Source of the DNA: Paragyromitra xinjiangensis
Taxonomy: Eukaryota > Ascomycota > Pezizomycetes > Pezizales > Discinaceae
Assembly (NCBI GenBank): GCA_038503065.1
Contig: JBCAMK010000007.1
Span: 1,054,001-1,118,000, forward strand
Direction: 5' to 3'
Length of the DNA: 64,000 nt
The notes under the pieces were generated by a model. It was not told the origin of the DNA, searched no databases, and was given only the letters and a program-made list of their open reading frames with translations. The translations under genes were made by a program, and so were the position numbers. Each line of letters begins with the position of its first letter. The first letter of the stretch is position 1. This document shows, one piece after another, positions 47,624 through 56,407 of this stretch.

Positions 47624-48386
47624 TTTCTGATATTGGAGTTGTAGATGAGATGTGTAGCACCCCACCTGCCGGAGCTGTTTGAAGGCATCATCATCATTGA
47701 TGGGATTGGGGTTAGGGTTGGGGGATGTATTAATCACTACCAGGAACCAATAGATACGCGGCGATTGTTTGGTGGGCGGCTCCGCTTAAGCGAGTTACCC
47801 CGCAGAAGGCTGACTTGTTCATGTTGTATCACTCGAGCTATTATGACGGCAGCTGAGATGGCGAATCATTGCATGTTGGGGATACTCGCGCTATCAGGAG
47901 ATGTTTCGTCAAGGTGCATTCTACATGGTGGACAGTTGGAGCTGAAATGTTACCGCTATGCATGTACCATATAGTACCATTACTACTATTACGGTATAGC
48001 CTCCGCGATGAGGATCCTCAGTCAACCAACAAATAGCTGAATACATGAATATACCAGCTCATTCTGCATAGCTATTCCGTATTCTTTGGTACTCTTAAAT
48101 GTCTCTTGTCTTGCTCATCCTTGTTCTAAACCTTATTACTACTTTTCGTGTAACAAAGAGCCTCACTCACTCTGTCATTTTCCTAACTGAGCTCTGAATA
48201 TCAAGGCAGCCACCCACGATGACTCCGAGGGGGGAGGATCCTCAGGAATAATCACCAATAGCCTTTCTATTATGACACTTTCCATTCCCCGCGGCCACCC
48301 AGCTTCAATCTTCTATAAAAACCCCTTCCTCCCCCCAGCCCTACCAAACCATTCCTCATCTATTATACCTCACCTCCATAATCACC
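47624..48386. promoter_or_regulatory. divergent promoter region of F-box and vWA genes
   Basis: 763 bp between two diverging start codons. A TATAAAA box at 48314-48320 lies about 67 bp before the vWA start codon, with a C-rich leader behind it. A 109-codon plus-strand frame (47645-47974) has no domain and is not called. Confidence 0.55.
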
Positions 48387-51254
48387 ATGACGAGAATCAG
48401 TGCCGGAATCTATCATTCCACCTCCCTTAACCCCCTCACGCCCCTCCCAGTCCTCACCACCCGCCTACGCACCGAAATCGTTGACTTAACCGCAACCCAC
48501 ACCCTCACCCAAATCTTCTGCAACCCAATCCCACGCACATCACAAGCACTCTCAATCAATGAAGCAAAATACACCTTCCCACTCTACGAGTCCTGCGCAG
48601 TGACCGCCTTCGCCGCACAGATCGGTTCAAAACTAATCCACGGCGTCGTCAAACCCAAAGAAGAAGCCAAAGCAATCTACGCTGAAGCCAAAGCCGCCGG
48701 TAAACAAGCCGCGCTCCTAGAGCAAAACACCGGTGAGGTGTTTACCACTAGCGTAGGCAATATCCCCCCTGGAGCATTCGTCGTTGTATGTATCAAATAT
48801 GTACACGAGCTCAAACAGGATATTGAGGTGGAAGGCGTGCGTCTTGTCATCCCGACTATCATTGCGCCGAAATATGGCTGGCTTAGTCCTGATAGCGATT
48901 TGTATGCCGCGAACTGGGCCAGCAATTGGAACGCCATGACGCAAGATCTTGAGAGACAATGTGGTGGCAGACCAGAAAACACTGGTATCTCAATCGAGGT
49001 TATCGCGACTATGAATGGCACCATCCGCAAGATCCAATCTCCATCCCATCAAATCTCTGTAGATATCGGCACTCACATTGCCGATTCCCCCGACTTCAGC
49101 CCGCAAAAGGCGCGCGCAACACTGGCACTCGATCCATTATCCCTCACGGAGCTCAAAAACGACTTCACACTGATCATCAATTCCACCGAGATCGGAACTC
49201 CTCGAGCGTTCCTTGCACCACATCCAGACCGTCCTGGTACTTCAACTCTTATGGTCACTTTGGTGCCGAAATTCGCCCTACCGCAGCAGCACCCGGAAAT
49301 CGTCTTCGTTGTTGACCGCTCTGGTTCCATGCATGACAAGATCGAAACTTTGAAATCTGCGCTTCACCTCTTTCTCGCTTCTTTACCTGTTGGGACTTAC
49401 TTCAATATCTGCTCGTTCGGTAGCCGTTCTTCGTTCGTCTGGAAAACATCACAAGAATATACCGCAGAAACGCTAACAGCCGCGAAACGCCATGTCGATA
49501 GTATGGCCGCTGACTTTGGCGGGACGGAGATGCTCGAACCCATCAAGAAGACGGTGAAACAGCGTCGTGAGGATCTACATACTGAGGTGTTGGTCTTGAC
49601 CGATGGCGAGATCTGGCATTCTGAACAGTTGTTCTCGTATATCAATACTGCAGCGGCAGACGGGTCCGTACGTTTCTTCTCACTGGGCGTAGGACAAAGT
49701 GTTTCGCACCTCCTCGTGGAGGGGATCTCGCGCGCAGGGAAGGGGTATTCGCAATTAGTTAAAGATGGGGAGAAGATGCAGAAGAAAGTGATGCGGATGT
49801 TGAAAGCGGCGCTTACGCCACATGTCAATGATTGGAGTGTTGATTGGGAGGGGAAGTCGGAACAACTGGCCGCCTTCGCCGCCACACAGGCTGAACCCCG
49901 TCAGTCGGATCCTGTTGTTCAACCTACCATTTCTCTCTTTGACCCTGATACACCCTCCGACGATACGGTGACTGCCATCCCGCGGCCTCTTCCCCAAGTG
50001 TCTCACCCACCTATCCTCCAAGCCCCTTCCTCAATCCCCCCACTCTTCCCATACACCCGCACAACAGTCTACTTCCACCTCACCACTCCACCCCCCACAT
50101 CCATCTCCCTCATAGGCACCGCCCACACCGATGCCAACACCGTCCACCCCCTCAAACTCTCCATCCCAATCACACCCATCACATCCCGCAGCACCTCCCT
50201 CGGCCTCCACAACCTCCTCGGCCGCAAACTCCTCCAAGACCTCGAAGAAAACCGATATCCCTACCTCCCCACCATCCCCGACCAACCAACCATCTCCGCC
50301 GCCCTCCGCGACCAAGAAGGCATCCGCCTCGGTACCCAATTCGGCCTCGCAAGTAAATGGACTTCATTCGTCGCAGTCTCAGCCGATAGCGAAGAAACTA
50401 CAGAACTCCCACCTCTAGAATCGGTACCTTATGCAGCTCTCTCATCTCAGACAGCTCTCTCATCTCATGCACCCCCCTCCGCTATGCGTAGAGCTCGCCA
50501 GAAACAGACAGCGCGGAAATCTACAGGCGGGGTCGTGAAGGAATCGGCTCAGTCTCCATTGTTTGTAGGAGGGAGCGAATCCTTGCGCGCAAGTGGTATT
50601 CCTATGAATGCTCCAGCTCAGCCCTCCTCGGTCAGATTCAAGAAGGCCTCGTTCGGCGAAAGCAGGGTTTTGAACTCACTCCTTGAGGTCACGCCATCCG
50701 CTAGTTCGTTAAGGGGTAAGAAAAAGAGACGGAATGATGGGGGTGCGTATTCAGCTAAGAGTGCGCATCCAGATACGAATAAGGGGACTGTGGAGGAGGA
50801 CCTAATACATTGTTCTGATGGTAATGAACCTGAGGGTAACGTTTTAGCACATAAGCGTGCTGTGGATGATGACGAGAGTATGGGCGAAGATGAAGATGAG
50901 GAGAATGAGGGAGAGGTTTTGGCGTTGGGCGGGGAAGACATGGTCTCGAGGCTGTCGCAACTACAGCTGTTTTCAGGTCATTTTAAGTTCTCAAAACAGT
51001 TGTTGAAGTTGTTGGGGGTGAAGTGGAAGAGTGCTGAAGACGCGAAGACAAGACTTGGGATTACGGGTGATGCGAAGGAGAATGCATTTGCGACTTTGTT
51101 GGTGGTAGTGTATTTGCGTGTGAAGTTGGGGGAGAATGAGGAAGAGTGGGAGTTAATGGCGGATAAGGCGAGGGGATGTTTGAATGGGGATGCTGAGGAA
51201 GAGGAATTGAAGAAGATTGAGGCGGAGGCGGAAGTGTTGGTGAAGGGGCTTTGA
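48387..51254 (+). CDS. VIT and von Willebrand factor A domain protein
   Basis: A single exon of 955 aa. The N-terminal VIT domain (about residues 15-140) has the pattern FPLYESCAVTAF, GVVKPKEEAKAIY-AEAKAAG and VGNIPPGAFVVVCIKYVHEL. The vWA domain follows (about 302-475) with an intact metal-ion-dependent adhesion site: D310-R-S-G-S314, Thr380 in GGTEM and Asp406 in TDGEIW. The last third is low-complexity with an acidic stretch, then an alpha-helical C-terminal region (about 880-950) seen in relatives. This is a widespread VIT/vWA family in eukaryotes and bacteria, related to inter-alpha-trypsin inhibitor heavy chains; no signal peptide is present, so it is probably intracellular. Function in fungi is poorly known. 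Confidence 0.92.
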   Translation: MTRISAGIYHSTSLNPLTPLPVLTTRLRTEIVDLTATHTLTQIFCNPIPRTSQALSINEAKYTFPLYESCAVTAFAAQIGSKLIHGVVKPKEEAKAIYAEAKAAGKQAALLEQNTGEVFTTSVGNIPPGAFVVVCIKYVHELKQDIEVEGVRLVIPTIIAPKYGWLSPDSDLYAANWASNWNAMTQDLERQCGGRPENTGISIEVIATMNGTIRKIQSPSHQISVDIGTHIADSPDFSPQKARATLALDPLSLTELKNDFTLIINSTEIGTPRAFLAPHPDRPGTSTLMVTLVPKFALPQQHPEIVFVVDRSGSMHDKIETLKSALHLFLASLPVGTYFNICSFGSRSSFVWKTSQEYTAETLTAAKRHVDSMAADFGGTEMLEPIKKTVKQRREDLHTEVLVLTDGEIWHSEQLFSYINTAAADGSVRFFSLGVGQSVSHLLVEGISRAGKGYSQLVKDGEKMQKKVMRMLKAALTPHVNDWSVDWEGKSEQLAAFAATQAEPRQSDPVVQPTISLFDPDTPSDDTVTAIPRPLPQVSHPPILQAPSSIPPLFPYTRTTVYFHLTTPPPTSISLIGTAHTDANTVHPLKLSIPITPITSRSTSLGLHNLLGRKLLQDLEENRYPYLPTIPDQPTISAALRDQEGIRLGTQFGLASKWTSFVAVSADSEETTELPPLESVPYAALSSQTALSSHAPPSAMRRARQKQTARKSTGGVVKESAQSPLFVGGSESLRASGIPMNAPAQPSSVRFKKASFGESRVLNSLLEVTPSASSLRGKKKRRNDGGAYSAKSAHPDTNKGTVEEDLIHCSDGNEPEGNVLAHKRAVDDDESMGEDEDEENEGEVLALGGEDMVSRLSQLQLFSGHFKFSKQLLKLLGVKWKSAEDAKTRLGITGDAKENAFATLLVVVYLRVKLGENEEEWELMADKARGCLNGDAEEEELKKIEAEAEVLVKGL

Positions 51255-51762: not shown

Positions 51763-54700
51763 CTACTTCGTCTTAGTTACTTTCATCTCAACCTCAATAT
51801 CAGCTTCAAGCCCATCCTCAATACCCAATTTAACCTCATCCCACAATTTCCACAGTAAAGTCCTCATAAAGTGAAGGGTTTTGCCAATCCCATACTCAAT
51901 CTCAAAATCAACCTCAATTCCCGCAATGACGCCTTGGACACGCGCCGTCAGCGGCTGGCCCTTTTTTACCAAATCGTTCAGCGATCCGTACAGTTCAACC
52001 CGGTGGATATTGAAAACATTGTCAAGCGCTTCCAAGATCTTTTCGGCAATATCCCCTAGCTTGTGACCACTTTTGGCTACCTCCTTTTCGATCCCTATTA
52101 CAGCTTCGTGTGCCACCTCGAGCTCTTTGGCGGCCTCTTTGACGATCTTCAAGTCCTTAGTTGCGGACCTGAGTTTTGCGAACTCGGGAGATTGCGGTAG
52201 GATCTCAAGTTTCGTTTCAAGGTCTCCAATCGTTTCTTGTTTAGTCGTTTTGAACCCTTTCAATGCCTTCTGCGCTTTCTCTAAGGCTACTTTTTGGTCG
52301 GTGACGGCCGTCTGCTCTTCAATAGCTTTCTTGGAAGCCTCGACCTTTTGATTCCGTTTCTTCGTTTCGGTTTTCAAATCTTGTTCAACTATCTTCATGA
52401 CTGCTTTTTCTTCCCTTTTTGCTGATTGCAGTTCCATAACCTTGGCTGTTTTTACAGCAACCGCTGACTGATAGCCGGAGCTTTCGAGGGCTGCTTGGGC
52501 TGTAGCAAGTTTTTGTGATGCGGATAGGAAGTCTGCTTCTGCTTCTTGTGCGAAACCTTTGCAATGACCTACTTGAAGACTCTGTACTCATGCGCCAGTA
52601 GTTAGATCTCGATTTGCGTCTCTAGGTCCATAGTGCAGCAACTTACATGTCTTACTTTGCTATAAAAAGGTGCTTTTTCCAGTTCCTTTATTGCCTCTTC
52701 CAAGTCTTTTACACTCTCATCATAGGTATCTGCATACGTTGAATCAGCTTACAATGGACTTTAAACATGAACATACATCGTAAAGGCGTACCTCGAGCTT
52801 CGTAGCATTCCTTTTCGGCATCTTTCACATCCTGCAAGAGAACACCAAACATTGACTTTGTCTCCTCTTTTGTAGCACGCACATCAAACAGCTGCGCTTT
52901 AATCGCAGCTTTAAACTCTCTTCTCGTCCGCATGACCTTGATAGCCGCCGAAGTGATAAAAGCAGCCCTATCGATTCTCGCCTGTTCAAGATGTTGATGT
53001 GCCGCGTACAGCGCAGCCTCAAGAGCTTTCTTCGCTTCTTCAAGATCTCGTCCCAGTTCAAGAATACCCTCTTCGAATTCACGAACCACCTCATCCAGAG
53101 CATCCCTAACTTCCCTCTCTTTAGCCTCCCAAACAACCTCAGCTGCATGCAAAACTTTCTTGGCCTTGGTCAAGTGGACATTTAATCTCTTCTTCTCCGC
53201 TTCAAAGAATTTCCGCGCGGCTTCGAAGCCTTCTTTTAGTGCTTTCTGGATTGCGCGGAAGTGCGCTTTCACGTGGTTATTAATATACTTAAGAATATCC
53301 TGTTCAAGGATAACACCTAACAAGAAATCCGCATTCTTCAAATTCTTAAAATCAGCAGCACCGACCACTCTCGCGCTGATCTCGATATCTAGTGCTTCTG
53401 CAAAAGCAAACGATAGGTCGAACCTCATATCTGGCTTCGGGAGGATGTCGAAAACTGAACGAACGCTTGTGTCGAGATCAAAGAGCTTCAGTCTTCCATC
53501 AACCATGATATGTTGCTTCAGGAGCCCTAGTTCGATGGATAATGACGGCCTTGACTCTTTTACTCCAGCTAGGAGCAAAGGACCCACTTGCACTTCGTCG
53601 AATAAGGCACTGATTTTGGTGGTGCTACCGATGGTGCATTCAACGTTGGTTTCTTTCCCAAGGAGTTGTATGTCGCCTTTTATTGACGCCCCAGCTGGAT
53701 AGTAGGTTGTGCCGATACTTGTTCCTGTCGATATGTAGAAGAGCACGTTTCGAAATGCCAGGAGATCTTCAGGTGGTAGAGGTATTTCCTCGCCGGAAAT
53801 ATCAGAGGCAAACTTAACTAAGTCTGTAATACTGAGCTTGCTAAGACTAGCTTTGAGGATTTGTTCTAACGGGTTTTCGCTGATTGCCATTGCTACTTGT
53901 ACTTCTGTGCCACCTATGGCTAGGCCCCCAGAGAAAGCTACTTTGCTAAATAATGGAAACCATGTCAGCATACTCAAGGAACAGACACTTAAGGCCACTC
54001 ACCTTGGAGTTCCAGTGCTCGCTAAAACGACATATATTATCCCCATCTCAAGAGCAACGTCTGGACCGATTTTCACTCTCTTCCCAACTCCAAGAGGGTT
54101 GACCCAGTAATTGGTCATTTGACTAAATCAATACCCCAATTAGTCCCTATGCCTTAGTTCACCAAAGAAGTGTAACTTGCCCAAATCCTTCCGCGGAGTC
54201 GAGATCTGCCTTAAGCCCAAAAGTAAATACCAAAGGTTGCGTTTGTCTAGCTACCTTGACATTCAACGCTGCAGTGAATACGAGTTGCGGGTTCTTTGTG
54301 AACACGAGTTCAAGTGAAATAGGTCCCGAGCTAAGGTTTGGCCCAAGGGAAAACTATTTGATGCCTGATCAGCACAGATACCATGTAATGCTTGATAAAT
54401 AGGGATCTTACTGTAACAGGAGCAGGTAAGACAATTCCAAAGCTAAAACCACGGGCTGAAGCATATGCTGCTCTCAATACCAAGCCACCAACTCTTCCGC
54501 CAGACACTTGGTCGAGTTGCCGTATTCTATCTATCACTGCACAGAATTGAACACCTGTGATAGACTTGTCAGTTCAAATCGTGCTATGATTCACTTCACG
54601 TTCTTACCTCTCCTGATCGGGTATTTGAAGACATTAAAATCGCCAGTGGGAGAATCCTGATTAGAAACGATGAAAGCCACCTGCCTCAAAGACAAGTCTA

Positions 54701-56407
54701 AGAAAGTTCCCTTCACTTTCGGCTCAAGCCGATTAAGCCTAAAATCCGCATCAATCTCCCCATAGACTGTCCACATAATCGGCTGGTTCTCCTCAAAGGT
54801 CGTATAAAGCGCTACAGAAATAACCATATCCCGAAAATGAACCTTCCCACTAATTTCAAACCCAGTTTCTCGGCTAGTAGTATTTGGCTCTATCCTACCG
54901 ATAAAAACATCCAGCTCTGCTTTCTCGACCGTGACTTCCCTGAGTTTAATGTCTCCTAGACTCCCGGTGATGGATATTCCGTCTCTATGGATCTTGAGTG
55001 TCGCTTTAAGTGAGGAATGACCGTCGATGGTGATTTGGCCAGAGAACGAAAGACCTGAAGTAGCAACTCGAAGGATCAGATTTTTTAGCTGGACGTCGTG
55101 TTTGAATTGTTCAAGTTCTCGCCCGGTCAAGTCGGAATAAAAGCGTTTGATATCAGCAATGGAGCATTCAGGGATCTCGGTTTGTATATAGAACTCAGCT
55201 GCGATGCGATACTTAATTAGCTTACGCTACCAAAACCATTGATCCTTTTAATATAGGTAGGGAAACCCTACAGGGCGAATAAACCCCGCTCAAGTTCAAG
55301 GTAATTTGTGAAAATTGCAACGACGCCGACGCTTCGAACGACACCTCTTGAAGAACTTCTTTAACGGGAATTCGGGTTATCAATTGCACTGATGAAAGCT
55401 GCACACAAACCAAATCTTAGTACCACGCAACCTTAGACTAACCTAGAAAGAAATTAAACTCGACATACCTTAAGTCCCTTAAACCCACTCACATTAAGCC
55501 AATCATTCGTCTCCTTCTTCAGGCGCAATACGTGAATTCCGACTTCTTCCTCCTTCATCGAATATTCCATAACAAGGGGAACCACCGACCCGGGTATCTC
55601 CAAATCAACAGTACCAAAGAAGCCAAACATGCAATGATAACTTGAACGGCCATGTACTTTTTCCGCGCTCCTAACCGCAGTTAATTCAACCCCAACAGAA
55701 GTGAAAGTAAGCAAACCCCCCATTTTCGCTTTCACCCCCAAGATAGTACCAGAGAGAGACATCTCAGGTGGTGTTAGCGGTTTCGTCCACTCCCTTGTGG
55801 ACGCCACGAATCCACTAACTCTCAACGACATGTATTCATTCAAACCAAATATAGTCTTGAGAGTATCATAAATACCAGCTAAAGCGCCTTCAAACGAGAC
55901 ATCCGCTTTAAAGTGCAACCCCGGAGTTTTTTCACTCTTAGGTTCAACCTCTTGATATGTGAAAGAGGGATTCTGTAATGAAACATCGCCAAATGAAGTT
56001 CCACTCAGCCCATTTAGTAGTTCCTTAAGCAATATCCTTTCACCAATAGTCACCATCTCCCTAATACCGCTAGCTTTCGCGAGTTCGCCATGGAACGTAT
56101 ATAGTCTCGCTGGCAGCCCCATTCCAAACAACTTTATGTCTCCACCCAACACAAAACCCGAAGGTACCCCGGCACCATTTCTTGGCGGTTGAGGACCTTC
56201 GACAAACTTTCCTTTTTTATCGACGGTCATCAGTTTTGGTCGGGTAGTGATCGGTATACCAGGAAGTCTGATTCTAACTCCCGAGTCTCCGTCTTTCATA
56301 GATTCGAAAACGAGCATTTCGTGAAGAGACTTCTCATCTTCCGGCTCTTGCGTGTGACGTCTATTTATAAATGTGAAGAGAGTATCGGCAATTGGAGAAG
56401 ATGTCAT
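51763..56407 (-). CDS. large protein of unknown function, 1387 aa, coiled-coil C-terminus
   Basis: Nine exons, spliced by frame: 56407-55469, 55398-55285, 55226-54608, 54536-54412, 54353-54163, 54122-54003, 53945-52792, 52729-52647 and 52581-51763. Phases agree at all eight junctions and no internal stop remains. The first 900 residues are rich in short beta-strand patterns with alternating hydrophobics and Gly turns, in blocks that look like related domains (for example VSLQNPSFTYQEVEP, VTVEKAELDVFIGRI and VQVGPLLLAGVKESRPSL). Residues about 928-1085 and 1115-1300 are long Ala/Glu/Lys/Arg helices predicted to form coiled coils, before a beta-rich VEVDFEIEYGIG-like end. No signal peptide or membrane helix. 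I recognise no family. It has no neighbour that explains it; it lies between the vWA gene (convergent) and the CBM48 gene. Confidence 0.78.

Follow-up and report, generated by a model that had tools for sequence, protein, structure and literature searches.

In a 64,000-nt window of the ascomycete Paragyromitra xinjiangensis (the whole stretch analysed; contig JBCAMK010000007.1, positions 1,054,001 to 1,118,000), a nine-exon gene on the minus strand (56407-51763) encodes a 1379-amino-acid protein. We found that it belongs to a family that is common to fungi and bacteria and for which our searches of Pfam, NCBIfam, PHROGs, PADLOC and the PDB gave no name. The protein joins two tandem copies of a beta-rich module to a long helical arm, whose outgoing helix carries an 18-residue repeat, and ends in a small beta cap. 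We regard both the family and this layout as new, and the fold could still turn out to be a modified form of some known beta belt. The initial annotation had singled the gene out as a candidate for an undescribed architecture; none of the libraries searched names it, and the description is now amended by the terminal cap and by the reach of the family into bacteria.

Profile searches gave the protein no described family. The window protein itself was scanned against Pfam only, and among matches listed to an E value of 10 no family reached its cut-off, in line with the earlier failure to recognize any domain; the best, DUF3810 (E 0.0049, 16.7 bits against a cut-off of 28), lay in the helices. 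Scans of 20 of the 66 relatives (limits E 5, 0.1 and 0.05) returned only sub-threshold Pfam matches, nearly all in helices, the best being HAUS-augmin3 on P0013 (E 9.9e-6, 25.7 bits, cut-off 29.4). With four relatives NCBIfam gave weak matches that reached no cut-off, and with four each PADLOC and PHROGs gave weak matches; almost every match in these three libraries fell in the helical arm. The best PDB sequence found with alignment A1, which holds eight homologues, had an E value of 0.047 and again fell in helices, and the named rows from a viral structure library were mostly SMC/SbcC-like proteins. PF28422.1 is tagged on P0023 in the search table, and P0022, nearest to it in the tree, is listed without that tag. 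A ricin-B-lectin domain given in the record of P0010 was not borne out, as Pfam lists none for P0010 at E ≤ 0.1; P0036 bears the name TolA in its source. Among the 10 of 153 papers listed by a literature search that used neither locus tags nor protein accessions, none is on the family by title.

The nine exons join in frame without an internal stop, as first annotated, and the length given then, 1387 amino acids, is revised by the splicing of intron 5. This intron has two possible donors, a GT-AG option (40 nt) that yields 1385 amino acids and a GC-AG option (58 nt) that yields 1379. The GT-AG option adds six residues (QVTLLC) that are present in none of the eight homologues in alignment A1, and we therefore preferred the GC-AG model, which has a GCAAGT donor and a CTAAT 21 nt 5′ of the acceptor and leaves no gap against the homologues at this point. 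Introns of this model measure 53-74 nt, and in seven of the eight a YTRAY motif resembling a branch site lies 18-24 nt from the acceptor on its 5′ side, a count made without a chance control. In five Tuberaceae the homology covers 97-98% of the window protein with 50-51% identity; in Rhizina it covers 94% with 37% identity. This near full-length homology argues for one real, conserved gene, as had been supposed, and rules out chance open reading frames (ORFs) or several separate genes.

The beta-rich part, suspected in the initial annotation of containing repeats, proved to be one module duplicated. A profile of 60 relatives and the window protein was split in halves, and profile-profile comparison aligned modules 1 and 2 over 313 columns (probability 99%, E 1.6e-18, score 141), identifying them as tandem copies of one ~340-residue unit; the reversed second half, used as a control, scored only 30. 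By hhalign, the C-terminal cap is not another copy. AlphaFold2 was run on the bacterial relative P0024 from Aquimarina (1199 amino acids, 30 rows), whose full model had a mean predicted local distance difference test score (pLDDT) of 76 and a predicted template modelling score (pTM) of 0.42. Residues 1-795 modelled separately (60 rows) reached a pLDDT of 80.5 and a pTM of 0.58, with pLDDT of ~58-72 across most of 690-795. In the full model the strands are followed by one 145-residue helix (808-952), several shorter helices in series (959-1129), three further strands and a final helix. The beta part is modelled as a meander of ~44 strands with mean faces of +2.2 and −0.75, the faces differing significantly in 20 of the 44 strands and not in the other 24 (shuffling, p ≤ 0.05). 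Per-region identities, for which the limits follow the numbering of the 1385-residue model and run six ahead past ~residue 657, mark module 2 as the best-conserved long part of the window protein (68-69% to P0001 and P0004). The PSGFVLGGDIKLFG segment (residues 81-142) is conserved at 61% identity, and the tail of residues 1-80 is variable, with 33% identity to P0001 and P0004 (72 and 70 aligned positions). No hydrophobic leader is apparent in the window protein, as judged by hydropathy only.

The long coiled coils of the initial annotation held up in part: the C-terminal third is indeed helical, but the outgoing helix follows an 18-residue and not a heptad repeat. Its hydrophobic period was 3.56-3.62 in all 29 rows tested (one of the 30 alignment rows was too short) and beat each of 100 shuffles in 28 of them, the exception being Rhizina; the arm of the window protein, tested separately, peaked at 3.61, above its own shuffles. 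Autocorrelation topped at lag 18 in bacteria (0.53, n=9), basidiomycetes (0.33, n=10), long ascomycete-type forms (0.35, n=4), Pezizales (0.31, n=6) and the window protein (0.27), with shuffle maxima of 0.08-0.12 in the four groups (window protein excluded). The canonical heptad pattern, with a period of 3.5 and lag 7 leading, was not seen in the outgoing arm. In the return arm lag 19 leads in bacteria (0.44) and lag 7 in the three fungal groups and the window protein; because lag 7 leads in these fungal return arms, we confine the non-heptad claim to the outgoing one. The aligned piece of the outgoing arm is 139 residues long in 26 of 29 relatives, bacterial and fungal alike, and at 1.5 Å per residue this length would span about 21 nm. 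It is unusual for bacteria and fungi to keep both a near-exact length and the 18-residue register, and this constraint predicts a ruler or strut.

Hosts of the family include marine Bacteroidota as well as truffles and mushrooms, Schizophyllum commune being one fungus with homologues. A first protein search returned eight relatives, namely the five Tuberaceae, Rhizina, and Epithele and Mycena at 27-29% identity. Searching with part of the Mycena protein returned at least 20 and brought in further mushrooms, Calocera, Serendipita, two Sordariomycetes and some unnamed sequences. Searching with part of a Bacteroidota member returned at least 45; these include Aquimarina, Echinicola, Algoriphagus, Kordia, Methylomonas and Agarilytica, as well as a partial Electrothrix and many unnamed sequences. 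These counts are lower bounds, each search having scored the ~7990 candidates with the most words in common. The members found are mostly ~1200-2200 residues long, and the layout is conserved in other fungi, with relatives in Pezizales, mushrooms and Sordariomycetes. More distant Bacteroidota proteins (L017 and L018) have, by eye, the same order of beta part, helix and beta cap, and passed no Pfam cut-off.

We built a quick maximum-likelihood tree from 63 rows (the window protein and 62 of the 66 fetched relatives, without P0017, P0018, P0034 and P0047; midpoint root). In it the window protein grouped with the five Tuberaceae (Shimodaira-Hasegawa-like approximate likelihood ratio test, SH-aLRT, 97), with Rhizina outside (100), a position that would suit a host in the Pezizales. 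A branch with an SH-aLRT of 100 divided the fungal rows and two unnamed ones from the rows labelled bacterial. Matches were found in four of 296 Bacteroidota genomes, the sole full-length one being the centre genome itself and the other three partial and distant (E 5e-17, 7e-7 and 5e-4), and in four of 52 Aquimarina-group genomes, two already known, one fragmented with internal stops and one weak. So few matches indicate that the gene is patchy in these groups. Gene neighbourhood was not conserved across the bacterial loci read, synteny being confined to close relatives (two Aquimarina and two Echinicola loci), and no match was found in phages (query P0059), plasmids (P0024) or viral contigs (A4).

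Some members are extended by an N-terminal motif domain, which a pattern search found in 16 of the 66 relatives, fungal and bacterial; four more proteins exceed 1450 amino acids and lack the pattern. Nine aligned segments share a set of invariant positions, among them W-L-H, A, Q, N-L, G, N, M and E, with an H...N....N...E spacing that we take to be reminiscent of His-Me finger nucleases; searches of Pfam, NCBIfam and PDB sequences gave nothing convincing for this domain. It is absent from the window protein, with the proviso that the pattern can miss variants such as that of a copy on contig C10 of the source genome (G000; 48.2 Mb, 22 contigs). This copy (L020, C10:83500-93000) is diverged, with 29% identity to exon 1 and the motif present by eye; module 2 and most of the arm are apparently missing, and a stop lies inside the cap. 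On contig C21 (L021, C21:1-8000), a piece with 27% identity to exon 7 spans the arm and the cap as well as the end of module 2 and begins ~1.6 kb from a telomeric repeat. From their sequences, both copies look decayed.

Our first-ranked reading, held tentatively and with less than even confidence, is that the window protein may be a soluble belt that binds lipid or a membrane surface and bears a rigid arm; a lipid- or surface-binding scaffold had been offered as a guess in the initial annotation. We rank it first because the strands are partly amphipathic and because of a weak match to the beta belt of apoB100, which was the best solved match of the P0024 model in Foldseek and, with VIA-align, of the beta model, and is no evidence of homology. 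The protein would be a soluble, probably cytosolic scaffold in which the two beta modules together might build one long curved antiparallel sheet, a belt or groove, greasy on one face. From this sheet a rigid helical hairpin of ~21 nm would project and come back to the small beta cap at its base. The greasy face could wrap or shield lipid, at a lipid-droplet or membrane surface or as lipids move along the groove, and the arm, nearly fixed in length, could set the distance to a second surface or partner, or clamp it, as a tether or ruler. If the beta body does bind lipid, it would be a new lipid-shielding solution beside apoB and the bridge-like transfer proteins. A wider proposal, in which the duplicated amphipathic belt and 21 nm ruler arm form a cross-kingdom soluble lipid machine that works alone in the short form, bears an enzymatic N-terminal domain in the long form and has moved between bacteria and fruiting-body fungi, seems to us unlikely.

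What the window family would share with apoB100 is a long antiparallel sheet, greasy on one side. The family differs from apoB100 in the two-module duplication and the 18-residue-repeat arm, and the window protein also in having no apparent leader; at E ≤ 10, neither a vitellogenin-type/lipoprotein N-terminal domain nor a chorein N-terminal domain is among its Pfam matches. Bridge-like lipid transfer proteins (VPS13, ATG2) are large and soluble and have a greasy beta groove, which for the window protein is proposed, and their layout differs. The closest known systems also include Vipp1 and colicin E9 as examples of helical hairpins and rods. In a comparison bearing on outer-membrane beta barrels, many barrels align to the beta model, with root-mean-square deviations of 11.0-19.2 Å.

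The same features can be explained without a lipid role. The protein could be a structural rod or linker in which a spacer arm is joined to ordinary beta domains, closed and with buried cores, and the kept arm length and 18-residue register do suggest a rigid mechanical element. Closed beta domains are equally expected to give amphipathic strands, and 24 of the 44 strands were not significant; however, the best 50 Foldseek rows were mostly belts, barrels, ushers and helices and not sandwich or lectin domains, with the proviso that large models can mask single-domain matches, and we regard this explanation as somewhat unlikely. We consider it very improbable that the protein is a divergent relative of the DUF6603 (PF20248) proteins, which resemble it in being large, beta-rich and present in fungi and Bacteroidota, with several in the same genome. 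DUF6603 occurs at four places in the source genome (C4:2683882, C6:628688, C6:59362 and C6:185028-186832; L035-L040), one of them fragmented with stops, and exceeds its cut-off in seven of 148 Bacteroidota genomes. With hhalign the region upstream of the DUF6603 domain scored 42, and a second set-up gave 36 against 28 (reversed) and 23, 19 and 19 (shuffled controls). However, the profile-profile probabilities were only 9% and 6%, a slice with most of the DUF6603 domain itself scored 22, inside the control range, and DUF6603 was listed neither for the window protein nor for the 20 relatives at the Pfam limits given above.

Alternatively, fungal tissue could store the protein in the cytoplasm for defence or as a toxin scaffold, which some bacteria would make too. 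Its beta body would then attach to the surfaces or membranes of a target; long forms would carry the enzymatic-looking N-terminal domain, and short forms would act without it or with a partner. The lack of an apparent leader, the patchy spread over bacteria and fungi, the motif domain of the long forms and the broken copy in one Aquimarina genome are all consistent with such a role. Among eight neighbouring ORFs scanned from six loci, a core gene of an extracellular contractile injection system (eCIS; L007:20241-21806, minus strand) and a ricin-B-lectin gene (L003:20901-22463, plus strand) each lie ~7 kb from one Aquimarina copy. Fruiting-body lectins are reportedly stored in the cytoplasm without a classical signal sequence (PMC6272156). 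Against this role stand the motif domain's want of a convincing match, its absence from the window protein, the unconserved neighbours of the bacterial loci and the lack of matches among the phages, plasmids and viral contigs searched. We regard a toxin scaffold, like the structural rod, as somewhat unlikely; if true, it would link fungal and bacterial arsenals.

Table 1. Coordinates of the window gene and its parts, and of telomere-type contig starts (numbers without a locus prefix are window positions).
Feature	Coordinates	Strand	Basis
Exons 1-9	56407-55469, 55398-55272, 55198-54608, 54554-54412, 54353-54181, 54122-54003, 53945-52792, 52729-52656, 52581-51763	-	splice model, homologue alignment, intron signals
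GC-AG intron 5 (GCAAGT...TTTAG)	54123..54180	-	splice model, homologue alignment, intron signals
Variable N-terminal tail (residues 1-80) and conserved PSGFVLGGDIKLFG segment (81-142)	55982..56407	-	homologue alignment
Beta module 1, ~residues 143-487	54804..55981, introns included	-	profile self-comparison, mapping from P0024
Beta module 2, ~residues 525-866	53441..54692, introns included	-	profile self-comparison, homologue alignment
Outgoing helical arm, ~residues 940-1085, 18-residue repeat	52722..53221	-	periodicity, autocorrelation
Returning helices, ~residues 1093-1296	52015..52700	-	alignment to P0024 and P0024 AlphaFold2 model
C-terminal beta cap and helix, ~residues 1297-1379	51763..52014	-	placed by alignment
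Telomere-type starts	L021:1-107; L043, L046-L049, L051, L056, L059

The convergent neighbour of the gene in the window (48276-51254, plus strand) resembles, by eye, a protein with VIT and von Willebrand A domains. Most Pezizomycotina are reported to have the telomere repeat TTAGGG (PMC10100673). In the source genome, eight of the 20 contigs C1-C20, together with C21, start with telomere repeats of the plant type TTTAGGG, read as (CCCTAAA)n (at least five units in 200 nt).
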